58,235 nt of DNA from Candidatus Gastranaerophilales bacterium (lineage in GTDB: Bacteria > Cyanobacteriota > Vampirovibrionia > Gastranaerophilales > Gastranaerophilaceae). Where the stretch lies: assembly GCA_944323265.1 (NCBI GenBank), contig CALURX010000010.1, forward strand, positions 1 through 58,235. The letters are read 5' to 3'. Below the pieces are notes generated by a model. It made no database searches and had not been told where the DNA came from. It worked only from the letters and a program-made list of their open reading frames with translations. Below, in pieces: positions 31,130-58,235 of this stretch (positions are counted from its first letter, which is position 1; every line of letters starts with the position of its first letter). The position numbers and the translations under genes are program-made.

Positions 31130-31233
31130 TTAAAAAATACCCAAATAATCTACCACATTTTCAGGATATATTAAATATTTTTTCATATCAAGAAAATGTA
31201 ACGTAATATGTAGTTATCTGTTATAATAAGAAT

Positions 31234-31773
31234 ATGCATATTAAATCTGCAGAGTTTGAGCCAATATACAAGGATATGCTTACTCAATTCCCGCCGGAGG
31301 AATTAAAGCCGTATGGACGGTTTTGCGAAATTCTGGGTGAGAATTATAAAGCGTATGAGTTTTGGGAGGATGAGCCGGTAGGATACGCGATAATTTTTGA
31401 GGATAAAAATTATGCTCTTATTGACTATCTTGCAGTATACAAAAAATTCCACTCAAAGGGTTATGGAGGGAAATTTTTGGCAGGCTTAAAGGATGTTTTT
31501 CCGCACAAAAAAGGGTTTTTATTTGAGGTTGAAAAACCTGATGAGAAAAATATTAATACTATTCGGCGCATTAAGTTCTATGAATCCAATGGCGCTGAAA
31601 AAATTAATATAGATTATTTTTATCCGGCACCGGAGGCGCCGCTTCCGATGGATTTATACTGCATCGGAGAGTATGAGACCGAAGAAATTAAAAAATTTAT
31701 CGAGCATCTTTTTAGAACTATTCATAACGATTGCAAATATTTAGAAGAAATTCTTAAAAAAATAGTGTTATAA
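31234..31773 (+). CDS. GNAT-family N-acetyltransferase
   Basis: 179 residues. The acetyl-CoA loop is seen as YKKFHSKGYGGKFLAGL (about 70-86), after the beta strand NYALIDYLAVY. The C-terminal part is degenerate. Substrate unknown. TATAAT at 31222-31227 is six bases before the ATG with no ribosome site, so a leaderless mRNA is likely. Confidence 0.8.
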   Translation: MHIKSAEFEPIYKDMLTQFPPEELKPYGRFCEILGENYKAYEFWEDEPVGYAIIFEDKNYALIDYLAVYKKFHSKGYGGKFLAGLKDVFPHKKGFLFEVEKPDEKNINTIRRIKFYESNGAEKINIDYFYPAPEAPLPMDLYCIGEYETEEIKKFIEHLFRTIHNDCKYLEEILKKIVL

Positions 31774-49357: not shown

Positions 49358-52117
49358 TTATAGGCATTTATAAATAAGGTTTTGCTCTTTTAATTCTACA
49401 AATTTTTTATATATGTATGGAATACTGACAGAAATTTCGCCATACTGTTCATCAGGAATAAGACTATAGTCATTTATAAAGTTTTTATCCAGTGAAATTT
49501 TATACTGTCCCGGAGAAATTCCTGAAAAATAATAATTTCCTGCATCATCAACCGTTGAATATGCAACTTCTGCGCCGGTCTCATCATAAAGGGATATGAT
49601 AAAATCTGATATATTCATTTTTCTATTAAAATCATCTGATATAAGAAGTTTTCCTGTTATATTCCCAACAGAACTTTTGAGAGGAAATTCTACTCTTGTT
49701 GTCTTTTGAGGTTCTACATATATATATTCTTCTGATTTTTTTTGCGCAGAGAGATTTGCATGCATATTATCAGAATCAAGACTTACGTCATAAAAACCCT
49801 TTTCAACACTCTGTAAATCACAAAAGCCGTTCCTTTTAGTCATTATCGGATTACTTTTCCAACTAACTTTTATTGGGACATTAGAGACTTTGATATCCTT
49901 ATTATCAAAGATTCCGTTATTATTTTTATCAATATAAGTAACAACTTCAACGAAGCCTTGATTTGGGGATGTTGTTCCGACAGACTGCAAACCGTTATTT
50001 GTAAAAGCAAAGGTATCATTAACTGTAAAATTAATAGAGTGGCGTGCATTTGAGGGAATATACATATTATTAAAAATATAGCCCATTGCGGTATTATATT
50101 GATAATTCAAGCTTACAATCATTCCGGTTTTTGTTCTGTAACCTATGGCAGCACTATAGGTACAGCCGCCGTCTAAGCCCTGATATTTATAGCCGATTCC
50201 GAGCCCGAGGAGAAATCTTTTAAATTCCGGAAACTGATAATTTATCCTTATCATATTATAATCATTTTTCGCCCCGTTTGATTCATAAGATACTGTATCA
50301 TGCCCGAGTTTTATTGCGCCTTTATTTTTGGGCAATCTGTAATTAAGATTTGCATAAGTTGAATTATACGAACTTTTAAAACCGTTTGTTAAACTGTAAT
50401 TTGAAGAATACTGAGTATCATACGCATTCCCCATGTTACCTGCTTCAACAGATAAATTTTGTTTTATATTTTTTGAGAAGTTTAAGTTGTAGTAATAATT
50501 CAAATTATGCCCTATACTATTTTCTCCGTATCTAATATTTCCGTTAAGCCTCATTCTTGCATTACCGAAGATTTTCGCACCGGCATTAAAATATGCTTCA
50601 TCAAACGAGGTTAACCCTCCGGAGTATCTGCTATCAAGATTTGAATAATACCTTGTATAACGCAAATTAGCATTTAAACTATCTTTTGTATATGCAGCAG
50701 CGACTTCCGCACCCAACCTGTCGCATATGAATCCTGAATCGGAGCCTGCTACGTAATAATCCGGAGATTGCTGATAAAGCCTTAGTTTCAATGTGGAATT
50801 TTTATAATCAAAGACATTTTCAAGCGAAAGTGAATATCCAAGATTATAAGGACTATCATTATAATTAAAATCTCTCATTATCGAGGCAGCAGCAAGCGCA
50901 TTCAGACCGTAATACTTATTTTTATACAAATTTAATGTATTAATTAGGCTCAGCCCCTCCATAGTATTTGGGTTTCTGTAAACACCGGACGAGAGAAGAG
51001 AATAATCATTGTTAAAACCTGATATAAACAAGGCATTATCATTTTGTTGGAGAATTTTGTCATAAATTATTTTAGTATCAAGCTTCATATTATCCGAAAG
51101 CCCATATTGACGATTTGCTCCTGCAACAAGCTTTTTGGAAGTCATCTGGTAAATATATCCGTTTGAGCTGAAAAGTCTGTTATTATATCCGGAGATTCCG
51201 GCAAAAATACGGTTTTTAGATTCACCTTTCGTCAGAAATTCTATTTGTTCCTGATTCAGCTGCCTTTTTTCATACTGATTATAGTCAGAAATCTGTGCAC
51301 CTATGAGCATTGTTCCAATTGAATTATATTTATCCCTCAAACCAGACACCTGACCGAGTTCGTAATAATAATCTCTGAATTTATTTTTGTATGTAAAACT
51401 TAAACCTCCAAAAGAGAAAAAACGTTCCGCATAATTGTTTGTATTGAAATTTAGTGCATAATCTCCCTCATACAATTTGCCTTTCAAACTCATACGCGTG
51501 TTATTATTGAACATAACATTATTCTGGCTTGCATTTAAATAAACTTGCTTTGTTGAATCGCTCATCATTGAGTTATTTATCTCAAATGTATCAAATGAAA
51601 ACCTGCCTTTTTCTTTCGGATTTATAGCTTCTTTTACAGGCAGCGAGTCCTCATACGATTCGGCAACGCTCGTTGGGTTTTCTAAAGCCCTGTTCATAAC
51701 ACTCACACATAGTGAGACTGCATCAACCGAAATATTTGAGTCAAAAATTTTAGAGGCAGTATTTTCATCAATAAAAAACTCATCAGCTTCTATAATTCCG
51801 TCCCTCTTGAACTTCGGCTTGGCATCTATCAAAACTCCGTTTAGAAAAATACCCTTTTTACTTACTACAACCTCTTTGTCATCCAAAACGGAAAATTTTA
51901 TTTCCTTGGCAGAATGATTCTCTTTAAATGGAATTTTTAAAATTCTTGCGGTTTGTTTTACCGGCACATAAATTTTGTTAGAAGAGTCCATATAAACTTC
52001 TATATCGCTATAGTCCGATTTGTTAAGTTCAAGCCCGCTTACGGTTGTTTCGTCGCAATATGCACTTATACAACAAGAGAAAAAGAGCAAAGACGCAACA
52101 AACAGACATTTCCACAT
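49358..52117 (-). CDS. Outer-membrane usher-like protein
   Basis: 919 residues. Signal peptide (1-21). Residues 25-135 form a small N-terminal domain (YVPVKQTARILKIPF). About 170-730 is a long beta-barrel of alternating strands rich in Asn/Tyr. The C-terminal 200 residues hold Ig/CnaB-like plug or tail domains (DKNNNGIFDNKDIKVSNVPIK, GNITGKLLISDD). This fits ushers of divergent (alternate) chaperone-usher systems. Its ATG overlaps the upstream pilin stop (TAATG). Confidence 0.75.
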   Translation of the reverse strand: MWKCLFVASLLFFSCCISAYCDETTVSGLELNKSDYSDIEVYMDSSNKIYVPVKQTARILKIPFKENHSAKEIKFSVLDDKEVVVSKKGIFLNGVLIDAKPKFKRDGIIEADEFFIDENTASKIFDSNISVDAVSLCVSVMNRALENPTSVAESYEDSLPVKEAINPKEKGRFSFDTFEINNSMMSDSTKQVYLNASQNNVMFNNNTRMSLKGKLYEGDYALNFNTNNYAERFFSFGGLSFTYKNKFRDYYYELGQVSGLRDKYNSIGTMLIGAQISDYNQYEKRQLNQEQIEFLTKGESKNRIFAGISGYNNRLFSSNGYIYQMTSKKLVAGANRQYGLSDNMKLDTKIIYDKILQQNDNALFISGFNNDYSLLSSGVYRNPNTMEGLSLINTLNLYKNKYYGLNALAAASIMRDFNYNDSPYNLGYSLSLENVFDYKNSTLKLRLYQQSPDYYVAGSDSGFICDRLGAEVAAAYTKDSLNANLRYTRYYSNLDSRYSGGLTSFDEAYFNAGAKIFGNARMRLNGNIRYGENSIGHNLNYYYNLNFSKNIKQNLSVEAGNMGNAYDTQYSSNYSLTNGFKSSYNSTYANLNYRLPKNKGAIKLGHDTVSYESNGAKNDYNMIRINYQFPEFKRFLLGLGIGYKYQGLDGGCTYSAAIGYRTKTGMIVSLNYQYNTAMGYIFNNMYIPSNARHSINFTVNDTFAFTNNGLQSVGTTSPNQGFVEVVTYIDKNNNGIFDNKDIKVSNVPIKVSWKSNPIMTKRNGFCDLQSVEKGFYDVSLDSDNMHANLSAQKKSEEYIYVEPQKTTRVEFPLKSSVGNITGKLLISDDFNRKMNISDFIISLYDETGAEVAYSTVDDAGNYYFSGISPGQYKISLDKNFINDYSLIPDEQYGEISVSIPYIYKKFVELKEQNLIYKCL

Positions 52118-52725
52118 TAGGGCTTCCTGTATATATTCAAAGTTATTACAGCTTCATACACTCCTGCCCCATCATCCTCCAGTGAATATGTTCCCGAAAG
52201 CGGGGTGTTTCCGATATGCTGAGACACATTAAAGTTTTGTTTTCCTTCACTTAAAAATTTGCAGCATACACTGCCGTTATAGTTTTGATATGTGCTCTGA
52301 AATTCCGCACTTTTCAAAACCGGATAAGCAATCATATTTTTATTGCTCTTGGGTGCAGCGGAATAAATATCGGCAAGTGAAGCTAAATCAGGGAAGTGCT
52401 CTTTGTTTGCAAGTATAAGATATAAGTCCCCATCTTTTAAGAAATATCCGTTCTTTTCACCAGCTTCTGTATTTATTGAGCTTGAGAGTACAAAATCGTA
52501 TGTACTGTCATCCCCATTTGTTTTTACATTAAAGACAGCCCCCAATCCCATATGTGAACCTGTCTGCGGATTTATGGTGCTATTATTTATTGCAGACGGA
52601 ATAGTATTTACAACAGCGGCAGACGGAATGATAACAGTAAGTACACTATCAGTTACTGCCGCACCGGAACAAGCCGGTGCGGTTATTAGTAACAAAAATA
52701 AAAATCTTATAAGATTATTTTTCAT
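52117..52725 (-). CDS. Putative pilin subunit (minor)
   Basis: 202 residues with a signal peptide (KNNLIRFLFLLLITAPACSGA). Beta-rich exported domain resembling the protein at 52738-53349: both have an alanine/proline-rich start after the signal, a FFxKxGxLYLIL-type strand, IAYPV and a C-terminal YEAxITL strand. The AAGGA before the ATG is well spaced. Between the usher and the other pilin it is most likely a subunit; sequence alone cannot show assembly. Confidence 0.6.
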   Translation of the reverse strand: MKNNLIRFLFLLLITAPACSGAAVTDSVLTVIIPSAAVVNTIPSAINNSTINPQTGSHMGLGAVFNVKTNGDDSTYDFVLSSSINTEAGEKNGYFLKDGDLYLILANKEHFPDLASLADIYSAAPKSNKNMIAYPVLKSAEFQSTYQNYNGSVCCKFLSEGKQNFNVSQHIGNTPLSGTYSLEDDGAGVYEAVITLNIYRKP

Positions 52726-52737
52726 TAAAGGAAATCC

Positions 52738-53349
52738 TTATGTTGTAGTATCTGTCAGAATAATATATGCTTCATAATTTCCTGCTCTGTCATCAAATGA
52801 ATAAGTTGTACTGTCAACAGCAGTTGAAATAGTTGTCAGAGCAGTTGTTACCCCCTGCTCTACACTGAATTCATATTGTTTTTTAGAGTCATTAAATTCA
52901 GGATCGCTGGTATACTTGCCCTGAAGGTCGACATTTGCAATCGGATATGCAATTGCATTCTGGTTATTTTCAGGTGTTGCAGAACCGCTTGTAATATCTG
53001 TAATAGCAGCAGCAGAGGGCTTCATCGTTGTATGACCTAATACAAGATAGACAACTCCGCTTTTTTTGAAAAATCCGGGCATTGCAGTTCCGCCGTCAGC
53101 AATTGTTTCGGCTTTCAAGTATAAATTGAGTTTGTCATTTGAACTAATTGTAAATTTTGACGTAATGGTATTTTCCAATTCACCTGTTTCAGGTTTGATA
53201 TTACTATGCAGACCGCCTTCTTCTGCTTTAATATCAACATAGGCCGGTAAAGTCGCCTGTACGGTTTGTCTTGCAAAATTCTCCGCATGAGCGCAGGTTG
53301 CAGTCGCAGCAAGCATTAACATTGCTGCCAAAAATTTTCTTGTTTCCAT
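52738..53349 (-). CDS. Putative major pilin subunit
   Basis: 203 residues. Signal peptide (KFLAAMLMLAATATCAHAE), then ARQTVQATLPAYVDI, which resembles ARQIVQAELPEILHI in the divergent protein at 55224. C-terminal half ends in YSFDDRAGNYEAYIILTDT, a possible donor-acceptor strand. AAGGAGG precedes the ATG, the strongest ribosome site in the locus, which fits a major subunit. Confidence 0.62.
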   Translation of the reverse strand: METRKFLAAMLMLAATATCAHAENFARQTVQATLPAYVDIKAEEGGLHSNIKPETGELENTITSKFTISSNDKLNLYLKAETIADGGTAMPGFFKKSGVVYLVLGHTTMKPSAAAITDITSGSATPENNQNAIAYPIANVDLQGKYTSDPEFNDSKKQYEFSVEQGVTTALTTISTAVDSTTYSFDDRAGNYEAYIILTDTTT

Positions 53350-53361
53350 TTTTCCTCCTTT

Positions 53362-54192
53362 TTAAATTGAATCGTTTACGTGAAATTGTGTTTCTTTTAT
53401 CAAGTTTTTATTTTCACCCTTTTCGTTTTTATATGTAAGAATAACTTTAAAAACATAATCACCTTCTTCTAAGTTTCCGGGCAACAAGCCTATTTCTGAA
53501 AATACGCCGTTTGCGCGTATCGTGTTACTGTTGACAGGAAATTCTTTAATCAGTTGGTTATTTTTTATAATTTGAGCTTTGCCATGATAGCGGACTTTAC
53601 TATTACCGCTTGCGCTTAAATCCATTTTGTATACCAGATTTTTATTACTATTTTTTTCGACTTTCAGGTCATTAAAATTTCCGGCTTTTACAACCCGCCC
53701 TTTATCAACATAAATAGGAATTCCCAAACGAGTTTTGACAATAAGCCGTGTATTCAAATTTTTATTAGCATTCGGCAGCATTATCTCTTTTGCGGCAACA
53801 TCTTCAATAAACATTACCATCCTTGATTCACCGTCAGGCAAGCTTTTTAAATCAGTAAAAGTTACACGTACAACTTGCGGTACACCGTTTTTCAAGGTAA
53901 ATTCATTCGGCACAAAACGTGCATGGGAAATTAAATTATCAGCATTGCTTGAAACAGGTACCGCATCCATTTTCCCTTCATTTGTAATAGTAAAATACTC
54001 AGGATAAAGTTTAAATCTCACTGTCTCATTTTTATCTGCCTGAACAGAAAAAGATGTTGTTAAATAATTACCCCTGCTTTTATTTGCATTCAACTCTATT
54101 AGAGTCGGCATTACTTTCACAGTAGCAAATGCCGGCGTTAGCTGCGACAAAAAAAGTAACAATACAGCAAATTTTTTCAAAAAGTTTTTCAT
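53362..54192 (-). CDS. Periplasmic pilus chaperone (PapD-like fold)
   Basis: 276 residues. Signal peptide (FLKKFAVLLLFLSQLTPAFA). VKVMPTLIELNANKSRGNYLTTSFSVQADKNETVRFKLYP is the first Ig strand set of alternate-type chaperones, FVPNEFTLKNGVPQVVRVTF and NTRLIVKTRLGIPIYVD follow, and a second Ig-like domain extends to the end. It guides pilin subunits to the usher. It ends 12 bases before the pilin gene. Confidence 0.8.
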   Translation of the reverse strand: MKNFLKKFAVLLLFLSQLTPAFATVKVMPTLIELNANKSRGNYLTTSFSVQADKNETVRFKLYPEYFTITNEGKMDAVPVSSNADNLISHARFVPNEFTLKNGVPQVVRVTFTDLKSLPDGESRMVMFIEDVAAKEIMLPNANKNLNTRLIVKTRLGIPIYVDKGRVVKAGNFNDLKVEKNSNKNLVYKMDLSASGNSKVRYHGKAQIIKNNQLIKEFPVNSNTIRANGVFSEIGLLPGNLEEGDYVFKVILTYKNEKGENKNLIKETQFHVNDSI

Positions 54193-54193
54193 G

Positions 54194-55105
54194 TCATTCT
54201 CTCTCCAATATGTAAGTAAACGGATTTTGTCTCACTCCTTCTTTTATATAGGCGTCAGAATTTGTATTTTTAAATGAATACTCAATTGTAATGTTAGTCG
54301 GGACTTTGTTACCGCATTCAATCCCCTCCAGAGTCGGCTCGCCGGAAGCAAGTAAATATCGTTTATTGGCAAGAAGTCTTGTACTGTCAGGTTCGTAGTT
54401 TAACACCTTTCCGGAGACATTTTTCAATTGAAAATAATATTCACAATTTTCATCGTCCAAAGACGATGTACTAAGCCACAATTTCCACCTGGTATTTGAT
54501 GCCAAATCAAGTCTTACATCATTTTGATTTTTTATACATAACTGTTTGTTAAAAATATCATTTTCGGACAATATAATAATAGGATCACCGCTCGTTGAAA
54601 TAATCGAATGCTTATCCTCTATAATAAACGTAAACAAGAGTTCACATTCGTAGTCCATTGTAAGCCCTGTTTTATCTAAGAACTTGAGAAGCACGGTATA
54701 GGTTCCCGCAGGAAGTTCCCCAATATTTTCAAGCTTTAAATTAATATTTTTCTGGGCAGAGCCTGTTATATCAAAAGTATCAATGTAAAACCTCTGCCAC
54801 CCATTATTACTAATTTGAAATTGCTGACCGTCACAGAAAAGATACAAGTTTGTTATAGGAATTTTTATATTCGGATTTTCGTTATTAATTATATAGCTAT
54901 CAGCAGAAGTGACAAAAAGTCTTGAATACCCCATCTGTATGTAAGTCAGGTTAACATTTGCAGTCACACTGTTTTCCGTAACAATCGGAAACCCCGTAAT
55001 CTCGGCTCTAAAGTGCGGATTGGCAAAAACACGCGGACAGATTACTGACATAAACAATATTATTACTGTTATTATTAAATTTTTCACTTTCGTATAAATC
55101 CTCAT
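54194..55105 (-). CDS. Exported pilus-locus protein (possible tip subunit)
   Basis: 303 residues from ATG 55105, chosen because a signal peptide starts there (KNLIITVIILFMSVICPRVFA); the open frame extends upstream to 55537 only through the divergent gene. Beta-rich with repeated ITN/DGQQF-type strands and several Cys (CDG, CELLF, LCIKN, CEYYF, ECG). No family recognised. The chaperone gene follows one base after it. A tip adhesin or second chaperone-like role is inference. Confidence 0.6.
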   Translation of the reverse strand: MRIYTKVKNLIITVIILFMSVICPRVFANPHFRAEITGFPIVTENSVTANVNLTYIQMGYSRLFVTSADSYIINNENPNIKIPITNLYLFCDGQQFQISNNGWQRFYIDTFDITGSAQKNINLKLENIGELPAGTYTVLLKFLDKTGLTMDYECELLFTFIIEDKHSIISTSGDPIIILSENDIFNKQLCIKNQNDVRLDLASNTRWKLWLSTSSLDDENCEYYFQLKNVSGKVLNYEPDSTRLLANKRYLLASGEPTLEGIECGNKVPTNITIEYSFKNTNSDAYIKEGVRQNPFTYILERE

Positions 55106-55223
55106 ATCTTTTATAAATTTTTGTTTAAGATAAAAAATCGGCTTGTTGTCTAAAGCTTTAAGGGTAGATTTTTTATACTCTGTAAGGTAATTTATATGCC
55201 TGACAAATACGGTTAGAGTTTTT

Positions 55224-55715
55224 ATGATGAAAAATTTAAAAAAATACTTGTTTTTAATAATGATAATATTTCTCAATGTAGGAACTGCTTCTGCCAATAA
55301 AGATGCCAGACAAATTGTGCAAGCAGAGCTGCCGGAAATTTTACACATTGAAAAAATCATTGTTGAAGGAGCTGAATATGAAAAGGATGATATACTTACC
55401 AATGTTGATATCAAAAGTGTCGAACCGTTAAGCGAAACTTGCTTCAGGTTAAATTTAAGTCCGTTTGTAGTAAGAATACATACCAATCTTGCCGAGCCCA
55501 TACAGGTTAGCGCAAAGTTTGAGGATTGCTGCAGCACCTGCGGACGATATCCGATGAAAAACGAAAATCTCTCAATTACACCTTCTTCATATACAATTCA
55601 AAATCCGTATGATAAAGTCGAAACGGACTTTTTCACACCACATGTACTTGCTCATGATGATACTGTCTGTACGACTTACAACGCAAAATTGATTATTACG
55701 CTTGGAAGGGTTTGA
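55224..55715 (+). CDS. Putative pilin-like exported protein
   Basis: 163 residues, divergent from the pilus operon. Signal peptide (KKYLFLIMIIFLNVGTASAN), then ARQIVQAELPEILHIEKI as in the major pilin. Cys residues CCSTC in the middle. Only a weak ribosome site. The next gene starts one base past this stop codon. Confidence 0.6.
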   Translation: MMKNLKKYLFLIMIIFLNVGTASANKDARQIVQAELPEILHIEKIIVEGAEYEKDDILTNVDIKSVEPLSETCFRLNLSPFVVRIHTNLAEPIQVSAKFEDCCSTCGRYPMKNENLSITPSSYTIQNPYDKVETDFFTPHVLAHDDTVCTTYNAKLIITLGRV

Positions 55716-55716
55716 T

Positions 55717-56466
55717 ATGATAAAAAAATTTTTAACAATTTTTATAATGTTGTCATTAAGCATCCAAACAGCTGTTTTTGCAAGAGAGGGAAGACCCGCA
55801 TTTGTATTTGCAATTGATGATTACTTTGATGATTCAAGCACATCTAACTCCGGCGGCGGTCTTTCCGGCGGAGCCATTACAGCAATAACACTGGGTTCAA
55901 TCGGAGGGGCTGCGCTTCTTGGTCTTGGAGGATGGCTTTACAAAAGAAAAACTGAACAATGTCTTGCGGCAGGGTGCATAAGAGGTGCAGGAAACCCCAT
56001 TGTGCCATTCTGTATGGAAACAAATCCCAATGCGGAAATTTATGCACGCATCAATAATAATTATCCTTATTTAAAAAAAGCCTTAAGTCTCAACGAAATC
56101 CACTACTGCCCTAATTCAAAATATCTGCTTGTATATGATACTCCTATTGAAAAACGCAAATTCGACTCTGTAAAATTTGAAATTCCACAAGGTACAAAAG
56201 CGCTGAAAATAACCCACGTTACCGATTCTTTTGCACGTAAGGATGTAACTGCCGAATTATTTTTATATAAAAATGAAACAAATACAACAGAACCTTATAT
56301 GGCAGAGTTAGAAAACATCTCGGAGAAATCTTCTGAGAAAAATGGAATCATCATGAAAACTTTAAGTATGGATTTCCAAAACTATCCTTATGCGGCATAC
56401 GTTGTATCAAATTACTCAGACAAAAAAATCTACGCAGTTGTAATAGAATTTATCTTCCAAAGTTAA
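55717..56466 (+). CDS. Exported protein with a glycine-rich membrane segment
   Basis: 249 residues from ATG 55717, preceded by GGAAGGG. Signal peptide (IKKFLTIFIMLSLSIQTAVFA), a Gly/Ser/Asp-rich stretch, then a likely membrane segment (GGGLSGGAITAITLGSIGGA, about 48-68) followed by KRKTEQ. The rest is a soluble domain with four Cys in two pairs. No family recognised; co-transcribed with the pilin-like gene, so part of the pilus or its surface anchor by inference. Confidence 0.6.
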   Translation: MIKKFLTIFIMLSLSIQTAVFAREGRPAFVFAIDDYFDDSSTSNSGGGLSGGAITAITLGSIGGAALLGLGGWLYKRKTEQCLAAGCIRGAGNPIVPFCMETNPNAEIYARINNNYPYLKKALSLNEIHYCPNSKYLLVYDTPIEKRKFDSVKFEIPQGTKALKITHVTDSFARKDVTAELFLYKNETNTTEPYMAELENISEKSSEKNGIIMKTLSMDFQNYPYAAYVVSNYSDKKIYAVVIEFIFQS

Positions 56467-56474
56467 AAACAAAT

Positions 56475-57002
56475 TTAGAAATTATAACTCAATATTGCAT
56501 TTATTCCCCAATTTTTTCCGGAATTGTCTTTTATGTCCTGAAGATTATAGCGTTGTCCTTCAATAGAAAGAGACGAGTTATTTCCTATTTTTTGTGTAAA
56601 TCCTGCAAAGATTCCTGCGCTGTTTGTCCATTTATTATTTTTATAATCGTACTTTCCTGCATAATGAGGATTGGCATAAAAACTCAAGTTTTTGTTTAGC
56701 GGAACCTCAACAGTCAATGGCGAATATCTTATTTGGGTTGCCGAACTATTTATACCTATTGTATTTCTTATGCGCAGATTTTGGTTCAAAATCCCATTTT
56801 TATCATATTTCATACTGCCTTTTAGATCTATAACCAGCATCGCATCGTTATTAAAATTCGTACCAATACCAATAAAAGATCCGGCAGAAGTTCTTGGAGA
56901 TACAGCTTTTTCTTCTATCCCCGCTATTGTTAAGTTGCTGCCATCAAAGTTTTGGTATGTATTTAGGCTGGCAGAGCCTTTTGTTATTACTGGATATGGC
57001 AT
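56475..57002 (-). CDS. Beta-barrel-like outer-membrane protein, short
   Basis: 175 residues of alternating strands ending in SYNF, an aromatic end typical of outer-membrane barrels. GGAG lies seven bases before the ATG. It starts MPYPVITKGSASLNTYQNFD with no signal peptide, so it may be an N-terminally truncated barrel. The start resembles IAYPVLKSAEFQSTYQNYN inside the pilin at 52117-52725. Function unknown. Confidence 0.55.
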   Translation of the reverse strand: MPYPVITKGSASLNTYQNFDGSNLTIAGIEEKAVSPRTSAGSFIGIGTNFNNDAMLVIDLKGSMKYDKNGILNQNLRIRNTIGINSSATQIRYSPLTVEVPLNKNLSFYANPHYAGKYDYKNNKWTNSAGIFAGFTQKIGNNSSLSIEGQRYNLQDIKDNSGKNWGINAILSYNF

Positions 57003-57099
57003 GATTTCTCCTAAAATTCCCTTATTTATATAAAGTATTTTTAGGAATAAAAATTGCCTTATTTTAGTATAATTTTACAAAATATGTTATAGTTAAAGT

Positions 57100-57162
57100 A
57101 TGAAAACACAAACTTCTTCGAAAATTGGAATTGTAGAGACCTCTTTAAATATTAATTGGTAA
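57100..57162 (+). CDS. Leader peptide of the acetyltransferase gene, 20 residues
   Basis: A 20-codon ORF from ATG 57100 that starts MKTQTSSKIGIVE and ends with TAA at 57160-57162. Its last codons lie inside the hairpin that hides the downstream ribosome site. Inducible cat genes of Gram-positive origin carry a short leader like this, on which a drug-stalled ribosome opens the hairpin. TATAAT at 57068-57073 may be the -10 box. Ribosome site weak. Confidence 0.65.
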   Translation: MKTQTSSKIGIVETSLNINW

Positions 57163-57175
57163 TATTTAAGGAGGT
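57139..57175 (+). promoter_or_regulatory. Attenuator hairpin masking the acetyltransferase ribosome site
   Basis: A 16-bp inverted repeat with one G-U pair: ACCTCTTTAAATATTA (57139-57154) with TAATATTTAAGGAGGT (57160-57175), loop ATTGG. The right arm contains the AAGGAGG (57168-57174) of the gene at 57180. Folding would block translation initiation. Confidence 0.8.
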
Positions 57176-57179
57176 TAAA

Positions 57180-57818
57180 ATGAAATTTGAAATAAAAGAT
57201 AATAACTGGAAACGATATAATTTATTCTGGCATTATATCGATAATTTGCGTAATGTAATTAGTATGACCTGTGATATTGATATAACAGGATATTTAAATT
57301 ATGTAAATAGTAATGGGTATAGATTTTACCCCAGCTTTATGTGGGCAGTAAGTAAAATTATCAACACCCACGAAGAATTTAAACTCGGTTGGGGTGATAA
57401 AAATCAAGTGGGTGTATATGACATTATTCACCCATATTTTGCTCACTTCTATAAAGAAGATGAACAATGCGCCTTGCTCTATACTGAATATCACGAAAAT
57501 TTGGGAGAATTTCACAGAAACTTTGTAAAGACACTTGAAGAATACAAGGCTTGCCGTGCATTTGATTTCCAAGATATTCCGAAAAACATATTTAATGTAT
57601 CCTGTCTGCCGTGGATTCATTACAAAAGTTTTGATATCCATGTATTTGATGAAGGCAAGTATCTTGCACCAGTCGTAACCTGGGGTAAATATACTCCAGT
57701 TGGAGATAAAATAATGATACCCCTATCATTTAATATACATCACGCATCAGCTGATGGTTTCCATCTCTCAAGATTTTTTGTTGAACTTCAGGAATACATA
57801 GATTCTTATAAGTATTAA
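57180..57818 (+). CDS. Chloramphenicol acetyltransferase-like protein
   Basis: 212 residues. HHASADGFH at 187-195 is the HHxxxDG active-site motif of CAT enzymes, which acetylate chloramphenicol. Other matches are the start NNWKRYNLFWHYIDN, FYPSFMWAVSKIINTHEEFKLG and PLSFNIHHASADG. Normal CAT length. ATG 57180 has AAGGAGG upstream. Followed by a terminator. Some members of the family are not resistance enzymes, so activity needs testing. Confidence 0.9.
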   Translation: MKFEIKDNNWKRYNLFWHYIDNLRNVISMTCDIDITGYLNYVNSNGYRFYPSFMWAVSKIINTHEEFKLGWGDKNQVGVYDIIHPYFAHFYKEDEQCALLYTEYHENLGEFHRNFVKTLEEYKACRAFDFQDIPKNIFNVSCLPWIHYKSFDIHVFDEGKYLAPVVTWGKYTPVGDKIMIPLSFNIHHASADGFHLSRFFVELQEYIDSYKY

Positions 57819-57826
57819 TTCTGCAC

Positions 57827-57853
57827 AAAGAGGCAATATTGCCTCTTTTTTAT
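57827..57853 (+). terminator. Terminator of the acetyltransferase gene
   Basis: Palindrome AAAGAGGCAATATTGCCTCTTT (57827-57848; described as two 11-base arms) followed by T's to about 57851. Confidence 0.85.
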
Positions 57854-58001
57854 ACAAATAAGACATATTAACTTGATGTTTGCAAAAGAACACATGATTT
57901 GATTATTTGGGGCAACATAAATTTAAAATATTAAATAAATGAACAAATTTACAATTTCAAGACTATAAAGTCCCTGTCATAAAAAAATTAAAATATATAA
58001 T

Positions 58002-58235
58002 TTAACCCTGCATTTTATCAAGCAGAGTTTTAATTTCCATAATTTTATCTTTAGCGATTTCAGAATCAGAAAAAGATTTAGCAACACATTCTTCAAGATG
58101 TGTTTTTAATATATTGCTCTCAATATGCTTGATTGCCGAACGTACAGCCTTAAGCTGTACAATAATATCCGGACAATATCGTTGTTCTTCAATCATTTTT
58201 TTGATACCTTCCAACTGACCTATTGCCCTGTTTAG
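58002..58235 (-). CDS. CsoR/FrmR-family metal or formaldehyde-sensing repressor (5' end cut)
   Basis: 77 residues visible, the reading frame open to the right edge of the window. RAIGQLEGIKKMIEEQRYCPDI, VQLKAVRSAIKHIESNILKTHLEECV is the all-helical family pattern. Cys in YCPDI and His and Cys in THLEEC follow the Cu(I)-binding C-H-C pattern of CsoR. Target genes are not in the window. It is separated from the acetyltransferase by about 180 bases with nothing recognisable. Confidence 0.85.
   Translation of the reverse strand, partial: LNRAIGQLEGIKKMIEEQRYCPDIIVQLKAVRSAIKHIESNILKTHLEECVAKSFSDSEIAKDKIMEIKTLLDKMQG

Follow-up and report, generated by a model that had tools for sequence, protein, structure and literature searches.

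A CAT-family O-acetyltransferase gene from a Candidatus Gastranaerophilales bacterium lies behind a short leader reading frame that runs into a hairpin hiding the gene's Shine-Dalgarno (SD) sequence, and the locus is probably a drug-induced translational attenuator of the cat-86 and catA7 kind. We also propose a more specific reading, to which we give an even chance. In it, the device would be an antibiotic-responsive attenuator with a leaderless arrest peptide specific to Gastranaerophilales, in which a drug stall would unlock SD-led CAT translation on the same RNA, and leaderless genes with a TGnTATAAT-N6-ATG layout would be widespread in the lineage. The window is the whole stretch of DNA analyzed, 58,235 nucleotides (contig CALURX010000010.1, positions 1 to 58,235, forward strand).

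Layout of the leader, hairpin, and CAT gene

The features of the locus are as follows.
57085 to 57093, + strand: putative extended -10 element TGTTATAGT (hexamer 57088 to 57093), 6 nt before the leader AUG, with the same spacing at five of six leader loci
57100 to 57162, + strand: leader peptide ORF of 20 codons, MKTQTSSKIGIVETSLNINW (ATG at 57100, TAA at 57160 to 57162)
57139 to 57154, + strand: left (anti-SD) arm of the hairpin, an inverted repeat that doubles as leader codons 14 onward
57160 to 57175, + strand: right arm of the inverted repeat
57168 to 57174, + strand: AAGGAGG, the CAT gene's ribosome-binding site, base-paired within the hairpin
57180 to 57818, + strand: CAT-family O-acetyltransferase, 212 aa (PF00302, E=1.4e-52; NF000491, 198 bits; 3cla, E=7.5e-40)
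57827 to 57851, + strand: terminator-like hairpin AAAGAGGCA-ATAT-TGCCTCTTT plus a T run after the CAT stop, read by eye

The leader frame reaches the left arm with codon 14, and its stop codon forms the first 3 nt of the right arm. The inverted repeat has 16-nt arms and a 5-nt loop, with 15 Watson-Crick pairs and one G.U pair; the isolated hairpin has a minimum free energy of -16.5 kcal/mol, and an extra G.U pair lengthens the helix to 17. The AAGGAGG stands 5 nt from the CAT ATG at 57180, and no SD was seen upstream of the window's leader ATG. A sequence-only reading had described a 20-codon leader ending inside a 16-bp hairpin with a buried AAGGAGG, which the ORF and inverted repeat confirm and which recurs at five other loci. 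Its comparison with the cat translational attenuators also stands, as the layout is that of a short, selected leader ORF running into an SD-sequestering hairpin. Among 147 SD-led ORFs that a simple ORF rule picked out from 456 kb of the source genome, the CAT gene has the longest SD-covering helix (17 with G.U; the next are 13 and 10). An Rfam search of positions 50000 to 58235, with E values up to 5, gave nothing useful, and the terminator-like hairpin was not among the calls of the promoter and terminator scan.

The protein has a PF00302 match of 179.1 bits (gathering score, 23.5) over profile positions 6 to 205 of 205, and the earlier label "CAT-like" holds on this basis. Its best family and structure matches, both over the whole protein length, are the NCBIfam model CatA (NF000491), at 198.3 bits and thus under the curated cut-off of 270 for this type A CAT equivalog, and CAT III (3cla). 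Aligned to 3cla, the window's CAT shows HHASADG, NVSCLPW, and NWKR. It keeps all of Arg18, Tyr25, Leu29, Ser148, His195, and Asp199, which, together with the motif HHxxxDG, we take to be the catalytic and key positions of CAT III. Identity to the plasmid CATs compared is 34 to 48%. Based on the PF00302 match, the kept residues, and the NF000491 score below cut-off, the protein is a CAT-family enzyme, probably active, and is not a catalogued catA.

Several other observations concern the surroundings. An element, TATAAAGTATT ... AAAAATTGCCTT, occupies window positions 57012 to 57082 and occurs at nine other places in the genome (L002 to L008; 10 matches including the window), some copies lying upstream of ORFs. 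Proteins encoded at 49358 to 56466 resemble, by look, a fimbrial or pilus-type export cluster; the four tried matched no NCBIfam family, and Pfam gave only SdrD_B, in a 919-aa protein. At G000:C5, immediately before 3803 (L067), a 13-bp hairpin with six T behind it covers the SD of a thioredoxin-like gene; this may be a terminator or a further SD lock.

Conservation of the leader peptide and stem

The six leader loci encode the peptides MKTQTSSKIGIVETSLNINW (window), MKTQKSSKIGIAKTSLNI (L015), MKTQKSSKFCIEAASLNI (L016 and L017), MKKQKSSKIGIAAASLNI (L019), and MKTQKSSKFCIEGASLNI (L020), with 18 to 20 codons and the consensus MKTQKSSK[IF][GC]I..[TA]SLNI. Over codons 2 to 8, pS is 0.485 and pN is 0.054 across the six loci (pN/pS of 0.11). 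Over codons 2 to 13, pN/pS is 0.35. Read in the two other frames, the ratio is about 2.3. The leader peptide is under purifying selection in frame. A leader frame not conserved in homologues had been named beforehand as counting against attenuation; that objection fails, since the frame is kept at six loci under in-frame purifying selection.

The left arm of the stem is invariant across the six loci (0 of 14 columns variable, versus 14 of 36 in codons 2 to 13; p=0.005). With third positions alone, 0 of 4 vary in stem codons 15 to 18 versus 7 of 12 in codons 2 to 13, a difference that is not significant (p=0.09). The pair adjoining the stem alternates between A-U and G-U among loci. No compensatory pair changes were found in the stem at the six loci, an absence that speaks neither for nor against the helix. 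A covariance model of leader plus hairpin, run on 383 family genomes, recovered the six CAT loci at E≤3.3e-13, and the device appears tied to the CAT gene because the strong matches are CAT loci only. Three further matches (L052 to L054, E of 0.05 to 0.07) had by eye no leader or SD stem and were taken as chance.

A probably leaderless start

The leader is probably leaderless, with the RNA beginning at its AUG, based on the position of the extended -10 and the lack of an SD. At five of six loci, exactly 6 nt separate the end of TGTTATA[AG]T from the leader AUG, and five of six have no SD 4-mer before the leader; L019, which lacks the extended -10, has AGGA. An RNA starting about 7 nt after the -10 box would start on the leader AUG, and we infer a transcription start at or next to 57100. 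The element at 57085 to 57093 was not among the calls of a -35/-10 consensus scan. Among loci, the 20 nt directly preceding the leader AUG have a mean identity of 51%, and the two 20-nt blocks beyond them have 36% and 30% (14 pairs, with the near-identical L016/L017 pair left out). In bacteria, according to excerpts of PMC3160421, leaderless genes are usually marked by a -10-like signal some 10 bp ahead of the start. A transcription start downstream of 57139, which would speak against a translated leader, is not indicated, as the putative promoter lies upstream of the leader AUG.

The same signature occurs across the genome. Among 410 ORFs (456 kb), 20 have an extended -10 located 5 to 7 nt ahead of a potential start (a spacing of 6 nt in 16 and of 7 nt in 4); an SD is missing from all 20, and the internal-ATG control gave 1 of 2206. 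The corresponding counts are 4 of 193 ORFs versus 2 internal ATGs in G077 and 5 of 176 versus 1 in G066. In 26 family genomes, TGNTATAAT-N6-ATG (TGnTATAAT-N6-ATG) occurs 669 times, 15 to 38 per genome, versus 22 for the reversed pattern, an enrichment of about 30-fold; with the spacing changed, TGNTATAAT-N10-ATG gives 119 versus 79. Enrichment is much weaker elsewhere in the phylum, where the N6 pattern gives 107 versus 56 across 43 genomes. An example in the window is at 31219 to 31236. As part of the joint reading, and with the same even chance, leaderless genes of this fixed layout would be widespread in the gut lineage.

Proposed mechanism and alternatives

Folding calculations predicted a single dominant hairpin for the leader RNA, with the SD fully paired in free RNA at all six leader loci. 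We computed SD openness with the RNA hidden as far as 15 nt beyond the first base in the P site. Under this masking rule, the SD stays closed for P-site codons up to 9, is 30 to 38% open at codon 10, and is 40 to 93% open from codon 11 on. The control RNA of staphylococcal catA7 (pTZ4), treated by the same rule, opens at codons 4 to 5, to 32 to 39%. Cat leaders stall at about codons 4 to 5.

Drug induction and stalling are, like the transcription start, what we infer from the DNA, and the following course would fit it. The leader would be entered by a 70S ribosome directly at its bare 5' AUG, and CAT would initiate by its SD. Without drug, ribosomes would clear the leader, the hairpin would re-form, and CAT would barely be translated. 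A peptidyl-transferase drug such as chloramphenicol would stall a ribosome on the leader; with the P site at about codon 10 to 11 or later, the left arm would be covered, the SD would open, and CAT would be made. The likeliest stall would have codon 15 or 16 in the P site, with Thr/Ala14 or Ser15 as the -1 residue, and would place the conserved N-terminal residues in the exit tunnel. According to excerpts of PMC8987054, chloramphenicol and linezolid arrest best with Ala, and less with Ser or Thr, as the penultimate residue, and the rule appears likewise for chloramphenicol in excerpts of PMC12121999. Position 14 is Thr or Ala and position 15 is Ser in each of the six leaders, and codon 15 or 16 in the P site fits both the -1 rule and the masking. 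This conservation is not independent proof of the stall site, because the same codons are fixed by the stem. In the model, a stall prompted by the conserved Ser6-Ser7 would fall at Lys8, too early for the stem to open.

The alternatives bear on different parts of this scheme. A chance origin of the ORF and hairpin in AT-rich DNA is very improbable: such sequence commonly contains weak inverted repeats, and the window has perfect 16-bp helices (counting G.U) at several further sites, but the longest SD-covering helix of 147, the recurrence at five other loci, and the pN/pS of 0.11 argue against it. Another, rather unlikely possibility keeps the attenuator and puts the leader inside a longer 5' UTR, where it would be initiated weakly, with no SD, rather than as a leaderless ORF. 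The RNA would then come from a promoter at TATAAT 57068 to 57073 or further upstream. That TATAAT is present, in a stretch that belongs to an element repeated in the genome, yet the other leader loci do not have it in common; what five of six share is TGTTATA[AG]T at 6 nt, and the 6-nt spacing is a family-wide signature.

Other alternatives accept the leader and doubt what it senses. We think it improbable that CAT depends on leader translation as such, through translational coupling or any ribosome slowing, with no specific drug stall. The left arm would lie under a ribosome that terminates at the leader stop, the masking calculation has late codons freeing the SD, and toiL is, in excerpts of PMC12121999, a uORF sensing several drug classes; against this, selection acts on the peptide, beyond the frame alone, and the cat layout is classically stall-dependent. 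It is also rather unlikely that the sensor answers a drug or natural product other than chloramphenicol and that the enzyme acetylates another substrate. The protein falls below the CatA cut-off in keeping with such a shift. The cat-86 leader is MVKTD and that of catA7 is MKKSEDYSS, and the window's leader differs in sequence from both, which likewise counts toward another drug, but the presumed catalytic positions of CAT III are kept. The Ala/Thr-Ser rule fits chloramphenicol, although linezolid follows the Ala/Ser/Thr rule too (PMC8987054, in excerpt).

Distribution and origin

A protein scan of a genome contig collection found eight loci 71 to 83% identical to the window's CAT, with titles naming Gastranaerophilales, Scatousia, "uncultured bacterium," and, once, "Fusobacterium sp. 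CAG:439." We took the last as a label problem and not a Fusobacterium source because G196, which belongs to the window's family, contains the identical sequence. Among 383 family genomes, 18 have a CAT match at E≤1e-30, 13 of them at 67 to 100% identity and 5 at 31 to 32%. Leader and hairpin are present in six of the 13 (window, L015, L016, L017, L019, and L020); five have the start region and neither leader nor hairpin (L018, L021, L022, L037, and L038), and two (L041 and L042) consist of the C-terminal half only, residues 86 to 212, and were not judged upstream. The device is therefore at 6 of 11 checkable loci of one CAT clade (at least 71% identical to the window), and the control is dispensable, as the other five clade members do without it. 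L021 is a shortened copy that ends after about 130 aa. An SD-helix scan with a wide zone covered the window, the five clade loci without a leader, and four outside loci.

In a tree, the ten intact clade proteins form one clade (100/98), on which leader presence needs one change. Outside it, the nearest row (96/96, long branch) belongs to a Clostridia plasmid protein; this protein is the best plasmid relative, 48% identical to the window's CAT, and no leader or SD hairpin was found upstream of it. The tree left out the shortened L021, L041, and L042 and the distant L012, L013, L014, and L047; among the rows kept, L011 and the L010/L043-L046 group sit on long branches. The gene is absent from the other genomes of the window's genus (0 of 33), and no relative was found in a viral collection. 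Across the scan of close-relative contigs and the 383 family genomes, the leader and the CAT clade (at least 67% identity) were found in Gastranaerophilales only. The CAT gene is a patchy possession of Gastranaerophilales, in several genomic contexts.

The sequence-only reading had seen in the control region a sign of acquisition from, or sharing with, Gram-positive gut bacteria, and this part is not supported. Leader and CAT clade turned up in Gastranaerophilales only in these scans, the nearest outside relative found is 48% identical and lacks the hairpin, and the leader start, apparently leaderless, differs from the SD-led staphylococcal cat leaders. We rejected a recent Gram-positive origin on the contig-scan loci (a scan that reaches close relatives), the plasmid relative, and the tree; a far older exchange with Firmicutes may have occurred. 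Neighbors in relatives, which had been put forward as a check, are mostly different apart from those shared by L016 and L017, and no mobile element common to the five other leader loci was seen. At L020, a recombinase-like ORF adjoins CAT.

A cysteine-rich small protein and a CsoR-like regulator lie behind CAT at L016 (1014 to 1719) and L017 (1840 to 2546), and the window's CAT likewise has a CsoR-like neighbor. The region of that gene, at the contig end (57891 to 58235), is 93% identical to a contig end of G014, and pieces of it are 91 to 95% identical in G428, G003, and G004. This suggests a recently shared segment, because other matches in the genus are only 65 to 77% identical.

Implications and comparison with known systems

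If the proposed reading is true, drug-inducible CAT control would extend to nonphotosynthetic cyanobacterial relatives in the gut, where it has a leader-peptide family of its own and shows no trace of a recent Gram-positive import. Two initiation modes would meet on one short RNA, a leaderless sensor and an SD-led effector, and the interplay of drug and initiation mode in attenuation becomes askable. The family-wide leaderless signature could be tested with any 5'-end transcriptome of these bacteria. The novelty of an antibiotic-responsive leaderless attenuator is provisional: no example was found by title and abstract start in the open-access literature, outside which most subscription papers lie. 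The same kind of search for Gastranaerophilales with chloramphenicol returned nothing on such a CAT attenuator, and open-access literature on Melainabacteria or gastranaerophil- returned nothing on leaderless genes.

The closest known systems are cat-86, in which a chloramphenicol-stalled leader controls the gene (PMC4191407, in excerpt), and staphylococcal catA7. In both, as in the window, a CAT gene is preceded by a short leader ORF that extends into a hairpin sequestering the SD, and the catA7 control RNA (pTZ4) opens under the same masking rule. The window-type leaders differ in length (18 to 20 codons), in sequence (MKTQKSSK...), and in host, Gastranaerophilales. Their stem starts at codon 14, so the stall must come later than in cat-86 and catA7. 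In the two catA7 leaders seen, GAGGTG or GGGGTG precedes the ATG, whereas five of six window-type leaders have no SD.

Leaderless short-ORF attenuators with polycysteine leaders were reportedly described in mycobacteria by Canestrari et al. in 2020. Excerpts of PMC9031893 present these polycysteine ORFs as cysteine-responsive, and the idea of a leaderless attenuator appears in excerpts of PMC4633059. They resemble the window in having a leaderless short ORF, here a putative one, that controls a downstream gene. The mycobacterial devices sense cysteine supply in Actinobacteria, whereas here a peptide is probably stalled by drug and the output is the hidden SD of a CAT gene; window-type leaders contain no Cys or one and are not polycysteine. 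In ermC-type macrolide attenuators, a drug-stalled ribosome on the leader opens a hidden ribosome-binding site (PMC5418344, in excerpt), as proposed here. ermC encodes a methylase and answers macrolides, whereas the window has a CAT-family gene behind a single dominant predicted hairpin.
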